From Colwellia psychrerythraea 34H (GTDB lineage Bacteria; Pseudomonadota; Gammaproteobacteria; Enterobacterales; Alteromonadaceae), in the NCBI RefSeq assembly GCF_000012325.1, contig NC_003910.7, positions 1,178,001-1,242,000 of the forward strand: DNA of 64,000 bases. Reading direction: 5' to 3'. Position 1 is the first letter of the stretch; each line of letters opens with the position of its first letter. The notes under the pieces were generated by a model that saw only the letters and a list, made by a program, of their open reading frames with translations, searched no databases and was not told the origin of the DNA. Of the stretch, positions 3,948 through 62,861 are shown piece by piece. The translations under genes and the position numbers were made by a program.

Positions 3948-4211
3948 TATACCCGTTCCACTTCAAGCTGCTGGATTCAGTGGGAATTTAAAATACTTTA
4001 GGCAAGGCATTCATTGCAAAGAATGGTTATTCCCTTCTTAAAATGAATAACGCTGCACAAAGTCTTTTAAAACCCACCCGAAGGGGGACACAGAGCAACA
4101 TCACTTCGTTGTTGCATCAATTTGTAAGGGAATGCCATGACTTCATTGATGCGCCTAGAAATGAAATTGCTCTGTGTTCCTGAACTTGCATCTTGAAGTA
4201 GAGCGGGTATA
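3948..4211 (+). repeat. MITE-like structured intergenic element, copy 1
   Basis: This 264-bp element is bounded by terminal inverted repeats beginning TATACCCGTTCCACTTCAAG (3948-3967) and ending with the near-complement at 4192-4211 (2 mismatches). It holds no credible gene. Inside are two base-paired arms: TTTAAAATACTTT with AAAGTCTTTTAAA, and GGACACAGAGCAA (4086-4098) with TTGCTCTGTGTTCC (4167-4180). An inner 8-bp stem pairs 4114-4121 with 4145-4152. It is a close relative of the copy at 58968-59228. The right end is 52 bases upstream of the TTG start of the 4264 lipoprotein gene, so it occupies that gene's promoter region. Confidence 0.85.
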
Positions 4212-5703: not shown

Positions 5704-7572
5704 TTAAAACTTATAATCTACAGTAAGGGTATAACCACGCTCTGAACCAGGATATTCACTTGATGTTTGATAATCTTTGTCAGTTAGATTTGTTACCTTC
5801 GCTAGTAAACTTACTTGGTTGTTTAGTCGGTAATTTAAACCAACATCAAGCAAAGTAAAGGCTTTCAATGTTTTTACTGGATCGTTAGCACCATCATATC
5901 TACTACCTTGATAGTCTACATCAAAGGTGAAATCAAACTGCTTGAGTGAGTAAACGAAGTTATAATTTGCAGAAAAATTTGGTCGTCTAGCTAATTGATG
6001 ATCTGTCGTTTTGTCTTCAGCATCAACATGGCTCAATGTTAATGTGTTATTGGTGTTGTAAATAGCAGCAGTAAAAGTTGCTTCAGCACCTAATATTTTA
6101 GCTTTTGCAACATTTGAAGGCTTATATGCACCTGATGCAGTAGGAGCCCACTCAATTAAGTTATCAATATCTGATTGGTAAATAGATACTTCAGCAGAAA
6201 GAGTATCGTTTTGAAAACGTGCTAAAAATTCCGAGGTATCCGCGGTTTCTGATATTAAATCAGGGTTGCCTTGCCAAGGGTAGTATAAGTCGTTGAAGCT
6301 AGGCGCTTTGAAAGCAGTTCCGTGACTTAGTGAGAATAGTAGTTGATCATTAACTTGGTAACCCGCAGCTACTTGATACGTTGTCTCGCTATCAATGTCG
6401 CCTACTTTATCATAACGAACAGAAGCTTCTAATTTCACTTGCTCAATATCATGACGACCCGTGACAAAAACTGCGTTAGCATCTCTATCGGTTTCATCAT
6501 ATTCTTTATTACTTTCAATGCTTTCTGTATACCACTCAAATCCTGCAGTGATTTCTGATGAGTCAGCTAATGGCAGTTGAGCTAACGCGGTAACTTGCTC
6601 ACGATTGGTAGTGAATAAGCTATTTGCATTACTGGCGCTATTTTGACTGTTATATTTGCTGTAGTTATCTTCAGTGCTGTCTTCTGAAGTACTTAAACCT
6701 AATTGCAAATACACCTGTTCTAGCTGAAGATGGTTTCGTAATAGAAAGTGGTAGTTTTCATACGTGGTTTCGTCACCACCGTATTTGGTGTTAGCATCAA
6801 ATTCAGTAGTGCCTTGGTCGTACTGTGTATTTAACTCAAGTGCATAGGCTTGAGTAAACTGACTGGTACCAGAAAGTGCTATTGATTGACGGTCATAACC
6901 ATCGTCATCGTTTTGATCTACGGTATATTGGCTATTACCATCAGGGACAACTACATCAAAACCATCAGATTTTTCTGCCGTTGCGCTTAATGTGTAACCG
7001 TGTTCTTTATTACCAAAGCCTAATGCACCATAACCTTGGTATAAGCTATCACTGCCTACTTTTATTCCTACCTGGCCTTCACCTGCAGCTAAGTCACGGG
7101 TAAAAATTTGGATTACACCACCAATGGCATCAGATCCCCACAAGGCAGCTCTAGGTCCTTTAATGACTTCTACACGTTCAACCAACTGTACCGGTATCGA
7201 AGCAAGACTTTTCGAGCCAAGTGTGGCAGAGCCAATCCGAACTCCATTAACTAATACTAATACGTGGTCTGAATTAGTACCACGTACAAAGGCAGACGTT
7301 TTATGCGCAGAAGTACCTTGCGTATTAATAGAGATACCGGCAACTCGGCCAAGTAAGTCACTAATAGATAAAGGCTGAATTTGTTCTATGTTTTCTCTAG
7401 TGAATATATTCACCGAAGCTAAGGTATCAAATTTGTCTTGAATACTGCGGTTAGCAGTAATGACAATGGTTTCGTCTGCTTTATCAATCGTTGTAGGGCT
7501 AGTTTGCTCTGCAAAAGAAAGTGATGAGTAAAGTAGGCTGCTTATACTTAGTGCTATTATTGTTTTGTTCAT
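5704..7572 (-). CDS. btuB: TonB-dependent outer-membrane cobalamin receptor BtuB
   Basis: Start ATG 7572 is preceded by TGAGGAAAAC, a good ribosome binding site; the longer frame to 7593 lacks one. The 622 residues begin with a signal peptide (MNKTIIALSISSLLYSSLSFA), then a TonB box-like DETIVITANR, a plug domain with the conserved VEVIKGPRAALWGSDAIGG stretch, and a beta-barrel ending in aromatic phenylalanine (VDYKF). BtuB imports vitamin B12 across the outer membrane using TonB energy. Its place downstream of a cobalamin riboswitch and next to btuF, cobO, btuC and btuD supports the substrate. Expression is probably shut off when cobalamin is abundant. The leader is interrupted by a 267-bp MITE-like element. 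Confidence 0.93.
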   Translation of the reverse strand: MNKTIIALSISSLLYSSLSFAEQTSPTTIDKADETIVITANRSIQDKFDTLASVNIFTRENIEQIQPLSISDLLGRVAGISINTQGTSAHKTSAFVRGTNSDHVLVLVNGVRIGSATLGSKSLASIPVQLVERVEVIKGPRAALWGSDAIGGVIQIFTRDLAAGEGQVGIKVGSDSLYQGYGALGFGNKEHGYTLSATAEKSDGFDVVVPDGNSQYTVDQNDDDGYDRQSIALSGTSQFTQAYALELNTQYDQGTTEFDANTKYGGDETTYENYHFLLRNHLQLEQVYLQLGLSTSEDSTEDNYSKYNSQNSASNANSLFTTNREQVTALAQLPLADSSEITAGFEWYTESIESNKEYDETDRDANAVFVTGRHDIEQVKLEASVRYDKVGDIDSETTYQVAAGYQVNDQLLFSLSHGTAFKAPSFNDLYYPWQGNPDLISETADTSEFLARFQNDTLSAEVSIYQSDIDNLIEWAPTASGAYKPSNVAKAKILGAEATFTAAIYNTNNTLTLSHVDAEDKTTDHQLARRPNFSANYNFVYSLKQFDFTFDVDYQGSRYDGANDPVKTLKAFTLLDVGLNYRLNNQVSLLAKVTNLTDKDYQTSSEYPGSERGYTLTVDYKF

Positions 7573-7621
7573 GTTTTCCTCAGTTATAAGCACCCACCGT
7601 GCTTACAATGATAAATTAAAT

Positions 7622-7995
7622 TTCAGGCCGGTCTCCGGACTTGAGTTACCAATATACCCAAACTACTTGAAGATGTGTGCTTCAGGACGCCTGAGCAATT
7701 TATGATCAAGGCGCTTCCTTTTATTAAGGGTTATCCCCTTAATAAATGAGGTAACGAAGAGCATGTTTTGCTCAGACGTCCCCGTTGGGCTGGTTTAGAA
7801 TTGCTTTAAGCTACGTTATTGATTTCGACAATAGAATAACTATTTTCTTCAATCAATGCCTTGCCTAAAGGCGTTTCTAATTCCAGCTGAAATCTGTATC
7901 TTCATGTAGTTTGGGTATAGCTGGCAGCTCACACCGTTGCGGGGGCAGTATTGGTTTAACCAATTTCCCGTTTCACCTTTAGCTATTACTGAAGT
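7622..7995 (-). ncRNA. Cobalamin riboswitch of btuB, interrupted by a repeat element
   Basis: On the minus strand the 5' core reads ACGGGAAA (near 7970), a TTGGT/ACCAA hairpin, then CTGCCCCCGCAACGGT (about 7935-7950), the hallmark core of the RF00174 family. The 3' part, the B12 box, reads AAGTCCGGAGACCGGCC (near 7626-7642). Between them, where the variable peripheral stems normally lie, is a complete MITE-like element (7653-7919). The usual GCCACTG and GGGAAGG motifs of that region are not evident; only GCCA remains before the insert. The 3' end is about 50 bases from the btuB start. The boundaries are approximate. Confidence 0.8.
7653..7919 (-). repeat. MITE-like structured element, copy 2, inside the btuB riboswitch
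   Basis: The 267-bp element has terminal inverted repeats (TATACCCAAACTACTTGAAG at the left, complement at 7898-7919 with one mismatch over 22 bp). In its consensus orientation (minus strand) it contains the shared core AGGCAAGGCATT. Arm 2 pairs 7685-7698 (GGACGCCTGAGCAA) with 7768-7781 (TTGCTCAGACGTCC); a 10-bp hairpin pairs 7721-7730 with 7736-7745. It contains no gene. Confidence 0.85.
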
Positions 7996-8060
7996 TATTC
8001 TCTTACTCACATGTAAAGCTAATAGGCACCTAAAATATTTCTTAGTGACTAGCGTTGAGG

Positions 8061-8945
8061 CTAGCTATGCTTTTGTTGTAGAAATGATCTTGTTTGATCT
8101 ATTTCTGCACACAAATCTTTTAATGCCGTTAAGCTACGTAATGTCATTCGATGCATAGCATCGGCATCAGGCTGTAGTATTTGTTTATTAGCTACGGCTG
8201 GTATTATTGACCAATCTTGCCAGTTAAAGGCTTCGCGCTCTTTTTGATTTACTGATAATGGTTGGATAATAAGTTCCACTGACGCGGGTAGTACTTGCTC
8301 AATACTAATTTGAGGGTAGGGAGTGATCACATGCTCAAATGGGTTTTTTACTTTGCATATGTTCAAGAACTGCTGAGGCCAGCTTCCTTTTGCAACCGTT
8401 GTTAAAGGTCTAGACCAAAGCTCGTAAAAACCAGTTATCTCTGTTTTATGTTGGTATTGCTGCTTTATTTTTATTAACGCTTGTTCAAACTTTGTTGCTA
8501 CTTCTTCACCCCGTGTCGTGTGACCAGTAATTTTAGCAAAGCTGCGTACTTCGTTTGCTATGTCTTCAAACGTGTGCGGTTGGGAGTATATGATGTTGAA
8601 ACCAAGTTGCTCTAATCGCGCTAAGTCATCACTTGGATTGCCACTTTTCCAAGCAATAATTAAGTCAGGCTGTAGTTCAATCACTCGTTCTAGTTGTAAA
8701 CGTACATAATTACCAATTCTCGGTATTTTCTTAGCTGCTTCGGGATAATCAGCAAATGATGTTGTACCAATAATTTGCTCGCCGGCGCCAACATCATAAA
8801 GCATTTCAACAATATGAGGGGCAAGGGCGATAATGGTGGGTTTACTTTTTTCTTTAGTTAATTTTTTATCAGTTTCTTTATTCTGTTCAGCATACGATGC
8901 GCTTGAAATAAAGAGTAAAATAAAAAGTAGAGAGATTAATTTCAT
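8061..8945 (-). CDS. btuF: Periplasmic cobalamin-binding protein BtuF
   Basis: The 294-residue protein starts with a signal peptide (MKLISLLFILLFISSASYAEQ). It then shows the class III solute-binding fold: an N-terminal lobe with IIALAPHIVEMLYDVGAGEQIIGTT, LQPDLIIAW and a long linking helix around residue 150, and a C-terminal lobe ending in a helix. This matches BtuF, which hands B12 from the outer-membrane receptor to BtuCD. Its position after cobO and just upstream of the btuB riboswitch agrees. It is probably transcribed from the btuD promoter as the last gene of btuD-btuC-cobO-btuF. There is an 81-base gap after cobO with a GAGCTAAC/GTTAGCTC hairpin (8976-9000) but no U-run. Confidence 0.9.
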   Translation of the reverse strand: MKLISLLFILLFISSASYAEQNKETDKKLTKEKSKPTIIALAPHIVEMLYDVGAGEQIIGTTSFADYPEAAKKIPRIGNYVRLQLERVIELQPDLIIAWKSGNPSDDLARLEQLGFNIIYSQPHTFEDIANEVRSFAKITGHTTRGEEVATKFEQALIKIKQQYQHKTEITGFYELWSRPLTTVAKGSWPQQFLNICKVKNPFEHVITPYPQISIEQVLPASVELIIQPLSVNQKEREAFNWQDWSIIPAVANKQILQPDADAMHRMTLRSLTALKDLCAEIDQTRSFLQQKHS

Positions 8946-9026
8946 TAGGTTGTTTCTATGTGGTCATCAATTATTGAGCTAACTCATAAAACGTTAGCTC
9001 TTAGTTAATTCAAAAGGGAACAGTCG

Positions 9027-9644
9027 TTACCAATCGATACCTTTTTGCGCTTTTATACCGTTATCAAAAGCATGTTTGATAGATTGTACTTCGCTAACCG
9101 TATCGGCAAGTTCTATAATGGCGCGATGACATGCGCGGCCAGTAATAATGACATGTTGATGTTTAGGACGGTTGTTTAATGTTTCAATTACGTCATCTAA
9201 ATCGAGGTATTTATACGACAGCATGTAGGTCATTTCATCGAGTAAAACCACATCAAGATTTGTATCGCTGAGTAACTCTTTACATTTAATCCATACTTGT
9301 TTCGCAGCGGCGATGTCTTTTTCTTTGTCTTGAGTATTCCAAGTAAAACCTGTACCCATGACACTAAATTTTACACCAGCATTTTCAAGTAATTGTCGCT
9401 CGCCACAAGCCCATGTACCTTTAATGAATTGGGCTACTGCAGCATTAAGACCATGGCCAACCGCACGGGCAACCGTACCAAAACCAGAGGTGCTTTTTCC
9501 TTTCCCATTACCTGTTATTACAATAAGTAAACCGCGCTCATCCGTTGCATTATCAATGCGAGAATCAACTTTCTCTTTTAACTTTTGCATTCTTTGTTTG
9601 TGGTTATCAGCAATGTTGCTGTCAGTTGTTTTTTTATCAGTCAT
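9027..9644 (-). CDS. cobO: Corrinoid (ATP:cob(I)alamin) adenosyltransferase, CobO/BtuR type
   Basis: The 205-residue cytosolic enzyme adenosylates cob(I)alamin to form the coenzyme. The modified P-loop GNGKGKST (residues 45-52) and downstream GFGTVARAVGHG and LLDEMTYMLSY (Walker B-like) are the CobA/CobO/BtuR signature; length equals the family norm (E. coli BtuR 196). ATG 9644 has GGAG 9 bases upstream. It sits between the permease and binding-protein genes, so import and activation of B12 are coexpressed. The gene order supports scavenging rather than de novo synthesis, since no corrin-ring genes are in the window. Confidence 0.93.
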   Translation of the reverse strand: MTDKKTTDSNIADNHKQRMQKLKEKVDSRIDNATDERGLLIVITGNGKGKSTSGFGTVARAVGHGLNAAVAQFIKGTWACGERQLLENAGVKFSVMGTGFTWNTQDKEKDIAAAKQVWIKCKELLSDTNLDVVLLDEMTYMLSYKYLDLDDVIETLNNRPKHQHVIITGRACHRAIIELADTVSEVQSIKHAFDNGIKAQKGIDW

Positions 9645-9700
9645 AGGGTTATCTCCACTGTGCTAATTTATTAAAGATTAGTTTGTTAAACATAAGTTGA

Positions 9701-10687
9701 TTAAGTTGTCGCTCTCGAGCGATACATGATAAATAAGAAAAATATGCTACCTAGTGCTGAGGTAATAATACCAATAGGGATCTCGGCATGAGGTAGTGAT
9801 GATCGGGCAATTACATCGACCCAGATAAGAAATATAGCGCCGATTAACGCACTGCCAATAATTAATTTTAGCGTTGTTACGCCAATGAGTTGCCTAACAA
9901 TATGAGGGATCATCAAACCAACAAAGCCAATACCTCCACAATAAGCCACTATAGTCGCGGTAAGTGCAGCACAAATACCTAACATCAGTAAACGTAACTT
10001 ATCTACATCAACGCCCAAACTAGCAGCACTTTCATCGCCTAATAATAGCGCGTCAATTTGTCTATGTAGTGCAAATACGGTGATCATTGCGATTAATAAA
10101 ATACTGGCAATGACATAGAAGTTACTCATTTCAACGCGCGCTAAACTGCCCATTAACCAAAAAATGACACGATTGGTGGCAAAAGGTTCGCCAAAATAGA
10201 GAATGAATTGGGTTATTGATGCAAGCATGAATGATACGGCTACACCAGCGAGTAATAACTGCTCCATACGTTGGAGTACCTTAGCAATGAATACCACTAT
10301 GATGACTGAAAAGAGTGCTCCGAGAAATGCCGCTAGTGGTAGCGCAATAGTGAGATTATCGGCCAAGGAAATATTCGCGATTGTTGCACCTAAACCAGCA
10401 CCAGAAACAATCCCGAAAAGATAAGGGTCGGCGAGGGGATTACGCGTAGTGTTTTGTAAAATAGCACCGGCTATAGCTAAGCCCATTCCTGCAACTAGCG
10501 CAACTAATACCCTTGGAATACGTACTTGCCAAATAACAATGTTCGCTATTTGGTTTTGGCAAGATCCTACTAAGCAGGCCATCAACTGAGATGAATCGAT
10601 GTCGGCAGGGCCAAATGTTATGGCTGCGAGTGCAGATAGAATGACTAGTATCGCTAATGCGAATAAACTAGTTGATACTTTATTCAC
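9701..10687 (-). CDS. btuC: Cobalamin ABC transporter permease BtuC (FecCD family)
   Basis: The 328-residue integral membrane protein has about ten hydrophobic segments and the FecCD family signature (WQVRIPRVLVALVAGMGLAIAGAILQNTTRNPLADPYLFGIVSGAGLG). Other family marks are SLGVDVDKLR and GLMIPHIVRQLIG, which contacts the ATPase. The length matches E. coli BtuC (326). It starts with GTG and overlaps the end of the ATPase gene by 8 bases, so translation is coupled. It works with BtuD and BtuF to import B12 across the inner membrane; the substrate assignment rests on the two riboswitches, cobO and btuB. Confidence 0.92.
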   Translation of the reverse strand: MNKVSTSLFALAILVILSALAAITFGPADIDSSQLMACLVGSCQNQIANIVIWQVRIPRVLVALVAGMGLAIAGAILQNTTRNPLADPYLFGIVSGAGLGATIANISLADNLTIALPLAAFLGALFSVIIVVFIAKVLQRMEQLLLAGVAVSFMLASITQFILYFGEPFATNRVIFWLMGSLARVEMSNFYVIASILLIAMITVFALHRQIDALLLGDESAASLGVDVDKLRLLMLGICAALTATIVAYCGGIGFVGLMIPHIVRQLIGVTTLKLIIGSALIGAIFLIWVDVIARSSLPHAEIPIGIITSALGSIFFLFIMYRSRATT

Positions 10688-11510
10688 TTAAAGGCTCCGA
10701 AATGGCGCTGTATTGCATGCTGTTTTCTTCAAGATAAAAAGAGACTTGAGTGGCACCAGTGATAACATCAACATTCTGCTGACAGGGTAAGCCAAAAATT
10801 CTGCTTAGTTGCTCTGGAGCCAAAACTTCTTTAGGGGAACCATCGCAAATTAATTGGCCTTTATCTAATAGCAACAATCGCTGGCAGTATAAACTGGCTA
10901 AATTGAGATCATGTACTGTCATAATCACGGTAATATTGAGCTTATTTACTAACTGTAATACTTGATGCTGGTAATAAACATCAAGGTGATTGGTCGGCTC
11001 ATCAAGAATTAATATTTGGCTAGCCTGTACCAGTGCTCGAGCAATTAATACGCGTTGCTGTTCACCGCCAGAGAGTTGATTAAATAGACTCTCTAGGGCG
11101 TGACTTAATCCTACTTTACTTAGGGCTAATTCAATCTGAGACTTATCATAATCACTATCGAGTGAAAACAAACTTTTGTGCGGTAATAGACCCATTTTCA
11201 TCACGTCTTGTACTGATAAAGCAAAGATAGAGTCATTTTTTTGCATAACTAAAGCGAAGTGTTGAGCAATTTCTTTAGCACTGAATTGTGTTATAAGACG
11301 ATTTTTAAGATGTACACAGCCGCTAACGTTTGCACTGGCAAGAATATTGGCTTGGTTGATTATACAACGTAATAAGCTGGTTTTACCTGCACCATTAGGG
11401 CCAATAATACCGATCACTTCACCTTTGCGGACAGTAAAATTAATGTCTTGCAAGATCGTTTTATTTAGAACTTTCCAGCTGAGCCCAGAGATATTTAGCA
11501 GAGTAGACAT
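10680..11510 (-). CDS. btuD: Cobalamin ABC transporter ATP-binding protein BtuD
   Basis: With the ATG at 11510 the protein has 276 residues. Walker A is GPNGAGKT (37-44), the ABC signature LSGGEQQR (146-153), Walker B LILDEP (167-172) and the switch histidine H200. A longer frame from GTG 11534 adds MRENTSLI but its start lies in the riboswitch expression platform and it lacks a ribosome binding site, so I prefer the ATG. First gene of the btuD-btuC-cobO-btuF unit, directly behind a cobalamin riboswitch. Family members also import siderophores, but the context points to B12. Confidence 0.9.
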   Translation of the reverse strand: MSTLLNISGLSWKVLNKTILQDINFTVRKGEVIGIIGPNGAGKTSLLRCIINQANILASANVSGCVHLKNRLITQFSAKEIAQHFALVMQKNDSIFALSVQDVMKMGLLPHKSLFSLDSDYDKSQIELALSKVGLSHALESLFNQLSGGEQQRVLIARALVQASQILILDEPTNHLDVYYQHQVLQLVNKLNITVIMTVHDLNLASLYCQRLLLLDKGQLICDGSPKEVLAPEQLSRIFGLPCQQNVDVITGATQVSFYLEENSMQYSAISEPLSE

Positions 11511-11544
11511 AATTAGACTCGTGTTTTCCCGCACGGTAATAAGT

Positions 11545-11680
11545 ATAGTTTTGTTCGTTAGCTATCTGACTTTGATTTAATATTTATTGTAAAAATAAAC
11601 ATCAGTTCATTCACAGTTGCGGGTACAGCGATGGATTTACACCATCTTCGATAACACAATAAAACCTTTGAGAACGAATT
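11545..11680 (-). ncRNA. Cobalamin riboswitch upstream of btuD
   Basis: On the minus strand the core reads ATGGTGTAAATCCATCGCTG then TACCCGCAACTGTG, followed 50 bases later by a B12 box AAAGTCAGATAGCTAACG (complement of 11556-11573). This is the compact cobalamin riboswitch form with a short peripheral region. Just downstream, GTGCGGG (near 11528-11534) is complementary to CCCGCA of the core and lies before the btuD start, so it may take part in the switch. Limits are approximate. Confidence 0.82.
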
Positions 11681-11957
11681 CTATCTTGAATCAGAATCAT
11701 TAGCAAACTTTAGATGTTTAGATGGCTATTAGTTATGCTTGCCTATATTTATAATTAGGAGGGCCTTTGATATTCTTAGATACACTTTTCATTATTTATA
11801 CCTAATGAAAATACAAATTATTTTCACTTAAAATATAAACAGTTAGTAACATTAATTCTTCTTAATAATTCGATAAATTCTTATCCATCTACTACGCTTT
11901 AAGGCAACTGATTTTCAGTATTCTCAATATGTTCTCAAAATATTAAAGAGGTATAAA

Positions 11958-58967: not shown

Positions 58968-59228
58968 TATACCCGTTCCACATCAGGATGCAGGATTCAG
59001 TGGGAATTTAAAAGACTTTAGGCAAGGCATTCATAGTAAAGAATGGTTATCCCTTCTGAAAATGAATAACGCTGAATAAAGTCTTTTAAAACCCACCAAG
59101 GGGAACACAGATCAACATCACTTCGTTGTTACACCAATTTGTAAGGGAGTGCCATGACTTCATTGGTGTGCCTAGCAGTGAAATTGCTCTGTGTTCCTGA
59201 ACTTGCATCTTGAAGTAGAACGGGTATA
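58968..59228 (+). repeat. MITE-like structured element, copy 4
   Basis: The 261-bp element is the nearest relative of copy 1, with TATACCCGTTCCAC at the left and GTAGAACGGGTATA at the right. Arm 1: TTTAAAAGACTTT pairs perfectly with AAAGTCTTTTAAA. Inner stem: ACACCAAT (59131-59138) pairs with ATTGGTGT (59162-59169), whereas copy 1 has GCATCAAT and ATTGATGC at the same place; two base pairs changed on both sides. It lies between rdgC and the histidine kinase gene, both on the minus strand, next to the rdgC start. Confidence 0.85.
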
Positions 59229-62507: not shown

Positions 62508-62821
62508 TATACCCAAGCGACTTGAAGATGCGTATTTCAGGATGCCTGAGCGATTCATGCTCAAGACGTCTCTTTTTATTAAGGGGTATTCAGGAGAATA
62601 TGCTCCTGCATTCTCTAAGAAACTACATCCATGTATCGCCCTTAAAAAAGAAGACAACGAAGTGCATGGTTTGCACAGACGTCCCCATAGGACTGGTTTA
62701 TAAACGCTTTATGCCGCGTTATTGATTTCAATAAGGGAATAACCATTCTCTTTAATCAATGTCTTGCCTAAAGGTGTTTCTAATTCCAGCTGAAACCTGC
62801 AACTTCATGTAGTTTGGGTAT
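62508..62821 (-). repeat. MITE-like structured element, copy 5, with loop insertion
   Basis: The ends are TATACCCAAG... (62508) and ...TAGTTTGGGTAT (62821), and in minus orientation the core reads AGGCAAGACATTGATTAAAG. It belongs to the copy 2 subfamily but is about 47 bp longer because the loop of the AAGGG/CCCTT hairpin has gained a segment containing CAGGAGAATATGCTCCTG (62591-62608), itself a small hairpin. It fills most of the gap between the porin terminator and the phoB Pho box. Open frames of about 66 codons inside it are chance. Confidence 0.82.
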
Positions 62822-62861
62822 TTACTTGCTAAAACGTTAAGCTTGTTTGATAATTTTGTTT

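Follow-up and report, generated by a model that had tools for sequence, protein, structure and literature searches.

A MITE-like repeat in the P6-extension loop of a btuB cobalamin riboswitch in Colwellia

Structured RNAs carry peripheral arms of variable length and sequence, and the birth of such an arm is seldom observed. The btuB leader of Colwellia psychrerythraea 34H lies in the 64,000-nucleotide stretch of DNA analysed here (the window, from a genome that is a single contig of 5,373,180 bp) and raises the question of what becomes of a riboswitch when a mobile repeat lands inside its aptamer. The first-pass annotation had proposed that the core and the B12 box of one cobalamin riboswitch flank an intact element at this locus. 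A cmscan match to RF00174 at 7609-8048 on the minus strand bears this out: both parts align to the model (positions 1-189) with 46.3 bits, above the gathering score of 31.5 (E 2e-08), and a 237-nt stretch is skipped within the match.

The interrupted leader and its relatives

The features of the leader are given below in the order of transcription, with the basis of each in brackets. We took the conserved ATG (7572) as the start of btuB; the mechanical ORF begins at 7593.

7609-8048, minus strand: cobalamin riboswitch aptamer (RF00174), interrupted, upstream of btuB (cmscan, 46.3 bits)
7950-7964, minus strand: P5 hairpin ATTGGTTAAACCAAT with L5 (P5 of the RF00174 model)
7933-7948, minus strand: conserved core CTGCCCCCGCAACGGT (same letters in 10/10 btuB leaders)
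7920-7931, minus strand: 5′ arm of the P6-extension hairpin (UGAGCUGCCAGC), kept (position and fold)
7653-7919, minus strand: MITE-like insert of 267 bp, counting the TA dinucleotide on each side (40 or more copies in the genome; missing in C. demingiae)
7653-7674, plus strand: terminal inverted repeat, arm 1 of the insert (inverted-repeat comparison)
7898-7919, plus strand: terminal inverted repeat, arm 2 of the insert (inverted-repeat comparison)
7642-7652, minus strand: 3′ arm of the P6-extension hairpin (UUGGUAACUCA), kept (position and fold)
7626-7640, minus strand: B12 box GTCCGGAGACCGGCC (RF00174 match and position)
7588-7604, minus strand: expression-platform hairpin AAGCAC-GGTGG-GTGCTT, probable P13/L13 (position and leader comparison)
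7570-7581, minus strand: Shine-Dalgarno-like GAGGAAAAC and ATG of btuB (ATG kept in ten leaders)
5704-7572, minus strand: btuB, probable TonB-dependent vitamin B12 receptor (from the conserved ATG)

The insert runs from TATACCC to GGGTATA, TA to TA, and its terminal inverted repeats of 22 nt are 95% complementary. With its short length, these repeats and no space for a transposase it has the properties of a MITE, so that the MITE-like element of the first-pass annotation stands; within the interval 7622..7995 of that annotation, the insert proper is confined to 7653-7919. Under the scheme of PMC11260477, the aptamer resembles a Class II-like cobalamin riboswitch with a truncated P6 extension, an assignment that is our own. 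In the expression-platform hairpin all six pairs are standard in 7/10 leaders, with one mismatch in G017, G018 and G033, and the candidate L13 loop reads GGTGG in nine leaders and GGAGG in one; a contact between L5 and L13 is a candidate only. The top NCBIfam match of the btuB product is TIGR01779 (TonB-B12), with 428 bits and thus below the cut-off of 599.7, and its Pfam plug and barrel domains score above their cut-offs. Scans of 7560-8100, insert included, gave no sigma-70-like promoter and, on the btuB strand, no terminator-like site, the single such site being on the opposite strand.

Elsewhere in the window, a second and weak RF00174 match was observed at 11540-11693 on the minus strand (32.7 bits against the gathering score of 31.5). 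It precedes what is probably an operon for cobalamin transport, comprising an ABC ATPase, a FecCD permease, a CobO-type adenosyltransferase and a periplasmic binding protein. Its B12-box region is degenerate, yet the loci L063 and L065 retain the match upstream of btuB's neighbours.

When we aligned ten btuB leaders, those of the window and of nine related loci (L063-L071, leaving out L072, a distant btuB with 35% identity), the uninterrupted form was found in six. C. demingiae (G003) has a natural empty site that reads GAGCTGCCAATCATTGGTAACTC, a short hairpin, whereas the window reads GAGCTGCCAGC-element-TTGGTAACTC. The arms of the host hairpin were thus kept and its loop was opened by the insert, and the earlier idea that the element replaces the variable peripheral stems has to be given up. 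The arms of the six uninterrupted leaders, only 24-25 nt long, all fold as hairpins with differing arm sequences, and those of the four insert-bearing leaders measure 290, 290, 130 and 77 nt; an equally long region of unrelated sequence was looked for in these near relatives and none was found.

The core followed by TACCC was present, as an exact pattern, in 4/39 Colwellia genomes: the window genome (G000) and the metagenome bin G011, with inserts of 267 bp each, the metagenome bin G035 (107 bp) and strain ND2E (G012, 57 bp). All four share one insertion point, the TA-to-TA insert being preceded by AGC and followed by TTG, and the insert sequence is common to all. The left flank of ND2E lacks three bases, and its host arm retains just two helices, one of 3 pairs and one of 2. 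Among 394 genomes sampled from the order, three of them Colwellia, the same repeat followed a cobalamin core, with no mismatch allowed, in the window's own genome alone. Under strict filters, the next longest cobalamin riboswitches among 122 matches in 69 genomes of the family measured 303, 273 and 265 nt, in a model search that may miss aptamers with very long inserts, and none of these three contains inverted repeats of 12 nt or more. The 303-nt riboswitch (L271 101-403, minus strand, genome G459) has a long stretch of unrelated sequence at the corresponding place in its periphery.

The repeat family and the history of the insertion

The insert belongs to a repeat family that occurs in at least 40 separate places of the window genome (44 match rows, 80-100% identity). 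This count comes from a search with 296 bases around the insert, in which 40 of 235 first-look candidates were scored, and the true copy number is therefore higher. The family was matched in all 39 Colwellia genomes, with one or two weak matches each in G002 and G005. At the loci of the 39 other scored copies of the window genome, no known RNA was matched at gathering score. Further copies lie in the window at about 3948-4211, 58968-59228 and 62508-62822. At the first of these, C. demingiae (L063) and a metagenome-assembled genome (L064) are empty and read GATATAAAT where the window reads TA-element-TA, which indicates duplication of a TA target. This is the one clean case; the riboswitch site and the 62.5-kb site, whose empty counterpart has drifted, are compatible with TA duplication without being clean. 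A search of the window genome for an IS630/Tc1-mariner-type parent, by the Pfam transposase family PF13358, gave no match.

The shortened inserts might be taken as a sign of selection for the stem. In G035, the deletion spans the interval between copies of a direct repeat, GAAACGCCTT, found in G011. Short forms of the repeat are common, however: the pattern TATACCC-38 to 68-GGGTATA occurred 50 times on one strand in 7/7 genomes, at lengths of 52-71 bp, against 2 for a reversed control, a count that includes a few chance or other-subfamily cases and two ND2E copies (those of the riboswitch and of the 3948-4211 locus). Shrinkage as a sign of selection for a stem was accordingly ruled out, and interior loss looks like a general fate of the repeat that is not peculiar to the riboswitch site. 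The copy at 3948-4211, downstream of btuB, was observed as a 55-bp hairpin remnant in L065 of ND2E, the genome with the shortest riboswitch insert.

Trees of different genes place the insertion differently. In the btuB tree (ten genomes) the four insert alleles are split from the other six, including C. demingiae, with a support of 97. In the gyrB+recA tree (16 genomes), C. demingiae groups with the insert-bearing G000 and G011 with a support of 100, and in the tree of the upstream genes (nine genomes) it groups with G000 and then G011, with supports of 94 and 94. The conflict among the btuB, upstream-gene and gyrB+recA trees (window 5704-11534, L063-L071) suggests recombination with a breakpoint near the riboswitch. 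The idea of four independent hits on an insertion hot spot draws on the grouping of the empty C. demingiae with two insert-bearing genomes in the gyrB+recA and upstream trees. Nevertheless, the common insert sequence, the shared insertion point between AGC and TTG and the union of the four alleles in the btuB tree speak against it, and we hold independent hits to be highly improbable. The simplest reading of these sequences is a single insertion in a btuB allele followed by recombination between species; loss of the insert in C. demingiae could be a further way to the empty site.

Recombination may also have touched the leader itself. P2 shows 0 to 15/49 differences among the four insert-bearing leaders, and it is identical between G000 and G035 despite a divergence of 33% at their btuB fourfold sites, a pattern that suggests recombination in the leader. 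For this reason P2 was set aside as a test of whether structure was kept after insertion.

Folding, conservation and the state of the switch

The first-pass annotation had left open two outcomes, a tolerated stem extension or a dead switch. We consider it probable that the insert is a tolerated extension of the truncated P6 arm and that the riboswitch is still under selection, with cobalamin binding and repression of btuB presumably retained. According to the mechanism we propose, a mobile repeat that is non-autonomous and bounded by terminal inverted repeats would have entered the truncated P6-extension hairpin at its apical loop, probably at a TA. As the element is self-complementary, its RNA would fold into a long closed arm that extends the host hairpin, interrupted by just one bulged base, and since the insert would form such a closed arm, the core and the B12 box could be held together as before. 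The riboswitch would then most likely still repress btuB when cobalamin is plentiful, and the insert would be tolerated cargo, shrunken by internal deletion in two relatives.

The fold model is consistent with this mechanism. The leader and the arm both fold far more stably than shuffled sequences (z -10.3 and z -11.8, respectively). In the window, the host arm (UGAG, UGCCAG) is predicted to continue into the stem of the element with one bulged C, as the first-pass annotation had expected of inverted repeats that let the core and the B12 box meet. This predicted arm comprises 34 pairs, arranged as helices of 3, 6, 14, 7 and 4 that are separated by small loops or a bulge, up to a 5x5 loop. The coaxial picture is weaker in ND2E because of its shorter left flank and its host arm of only 3 + 2 pairs.

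Eight leaders were folded, and in all eight the P3 and P6 letters, which would pair the core with the B12 box, are complementary. When P3, P5 and P6 were enforced, the cost was 7.1 (G000), 7.2 (G011), 7.1 (G035) and 9.0 (G012) kcal/mol in the insert-bearing leaders and 7.1 (C. demingiae, empty), 9.9 (G017) and 7.0 (G018) kcal/mol in the uninterrupted ones, G014 being left out of this comparison. In the model, the insert thus does not compete with the core fold and is energetically independent of it. These energies bear on whether the insert folds independently and are no measure of aptamer activity, because in the unconstrained ensemble the probability of P3 was at most 0.02 in 8/8 leaders, empty or not, and that of P6, which ranged from 0.00 to 0.39, was near zero in G012 (0.01) and G017 (0.00).

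The length of the arm brings up a different reading, in which the insert alters regulation, either through RNase III, which would cut the long arm and leave a two-piece aptamer, or through slower folding that would change the response. The 34 pairs and their arrangement in helices are in its favour, as is the conservation that resumes on both sides of the insert, and the Neisseria CREE repeat is reported to be capable of binding RNase III, with cleavage or protection as the outcome (PMC2649163). On the other hand, the longest perfect helix has 14 pairs in the window arm and at most 9 in the other three insert arms, and the arms of two genomes are shortened, so a long duplex is not required. 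We therefore regard altered regulation as rather unlikely. As for a split riboswitch, in which the MITE arm would be a processing site and a two-piece aptamer would be kept together by the cut arm and the helices that remain, we think it unlikely; if it were true, mRNA life and switching would change together. In a wider form of this reading, the loops of aptamers would serve as landing sites where self-folding mobile repeats turn into new peripheral domains.

If the insert had instead killed the switch, no binding pocket would form from the core and the B12 box, and btuB would be constitutive or permanently off. The RF00174 score indeed falls from 68.1 bits in the empty leader of C. demingiae to 46.3 (window) and 41.2 bits in the leaders with full-length inserts. 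However, this drop tracks the length of the insert, as the leaders with shortened inserts score 64.4 and 62.6 bits. The core and the B12 box are moreover near-invariant in the four genomes: with P2 and the arm set aside, the core differed pairwise at 1-3 of 145 aligned positions, against 22-41% at the fourfold sites of btuB in 6/6 pairs. The uninterrupted pair G017-G018 was similar (3/145 in the core against 29% at fourfold sites).

The core also changes less than the insert that lies between its halves. Differences were 12/267 in the insert against 1/145 in the core for G000-G011 (p 0.027), 7/107 against 2/145 for G000-G035 (p 0.033), 5/57 against 2/145 for G000-G012 (p 0.020), 8/107 against 3/145 for G011-G035 (p 0.039) and 6/57 against 2/145 for G035-G012 (p 0.007), while G011-G012, with 3/57 against 3/145 (p 0.22), was the one non-significant pair of six. 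Since these six pairs are not independent of one another, we pooled G000-G011 and G035-G012, taken as sharing no branch, and obtained 18/324 in the insert against 3/290 in the core (one-sided Fisher p 0.00145). Given the conflict of the trees, exchange of leader segments could lower the apparent divergence of the core, and the interleaved insert clock is a partial guard against this. A dead switch does not explain a preserved core, and we find it quite improbable; of the two outcomes first proposed, the fold and the near-invariant core favour the tolerated extension.

The insert is a conservative clock, because slow divergence is also seen in copies of the repeat at other loci. We compared orthologous copies among 96 loci, the best-scoring copies of five genomes, in 28 pair rows, six of which are the riboswitch copy; the row L007-L252 (48%) was dropped as an orientation artefact. 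Away from the riboswitch, 21 orthologous pairs, including one that was matched through a single flank, differed by 0-13.8%. At 4.5% between G000 and G011, the riboswitch copy is ordinary in this respect; special conservation of the insert was thus ruled out and, with orthologous copies elsewhere diverging as little, nothing shows that the insert is useful. As an observation on the family itself, L023-L231 and 20 other orthologous repeat pairs remain this similar, one pair with 0/269 differences, despite a divergence of 22-41% at btuB fourfold sites among such genomes. This low divergence could come from gene conversion, constraint or recent exchange.

Comparison with known systems

The btuB leader shares with the RF00174 Class II-like riboswitches with truncated P6 extension (PMC11260477) the core, the B12 box, P5 and a candidate L13 hairpin and, in the uninterrupted relatives, a short P6-extension hairpin. 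It departs from them in that the P6-extension loop holds a 267-bp mobile repeat or its remnants. The insert in turn resembles MITEs such as CREE/NEMIS and RUP (PMC10969869, PMC3049150 and PMC2649163): like them it is short, has terminal inverted repeats, many copies and a self-folding transcript, and belongs to a family with target duplication. Unlike them, it has an aptamer loop as its home. A 2024 review of prokaryotic MITEs goes no further than to call it conceivable that MITEs form riboswitches (PMC10969869).

The nearest precedent that we found is the leader of the pneumococcal trp operon, in which two T-box riboswitches are separated by a BOX repeat; on the basis of RNA-seq, the authors of that study infer that the riboswitches remain able to function. 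Both are mobile, self-folding repeats co-transcribed in a riboswitch leader, but BOX stands between two riboswitches, whereas the btuB insert lies inside one aptamer, between the ligand core and the B12 box (PMC3049150). Among the papers listed in searches of open-licence PMC full text, no case of a mobile repeat inside one aptamer was found.

The empty allele, the full insert and the two shrunken inserts of close relatives make up a natural series from repeat to riboswitch arm, which lets the tolerance of an aptamer for foreign RNA and the role of the arm be tested directly. In filamentous cyanobacteria, insertions of STRR repeats lengthen a peripheral part of another structured RNA, that of RNase P; those, however, are tandem short repeats, and their host is a ribozyme and not a ligand switch.
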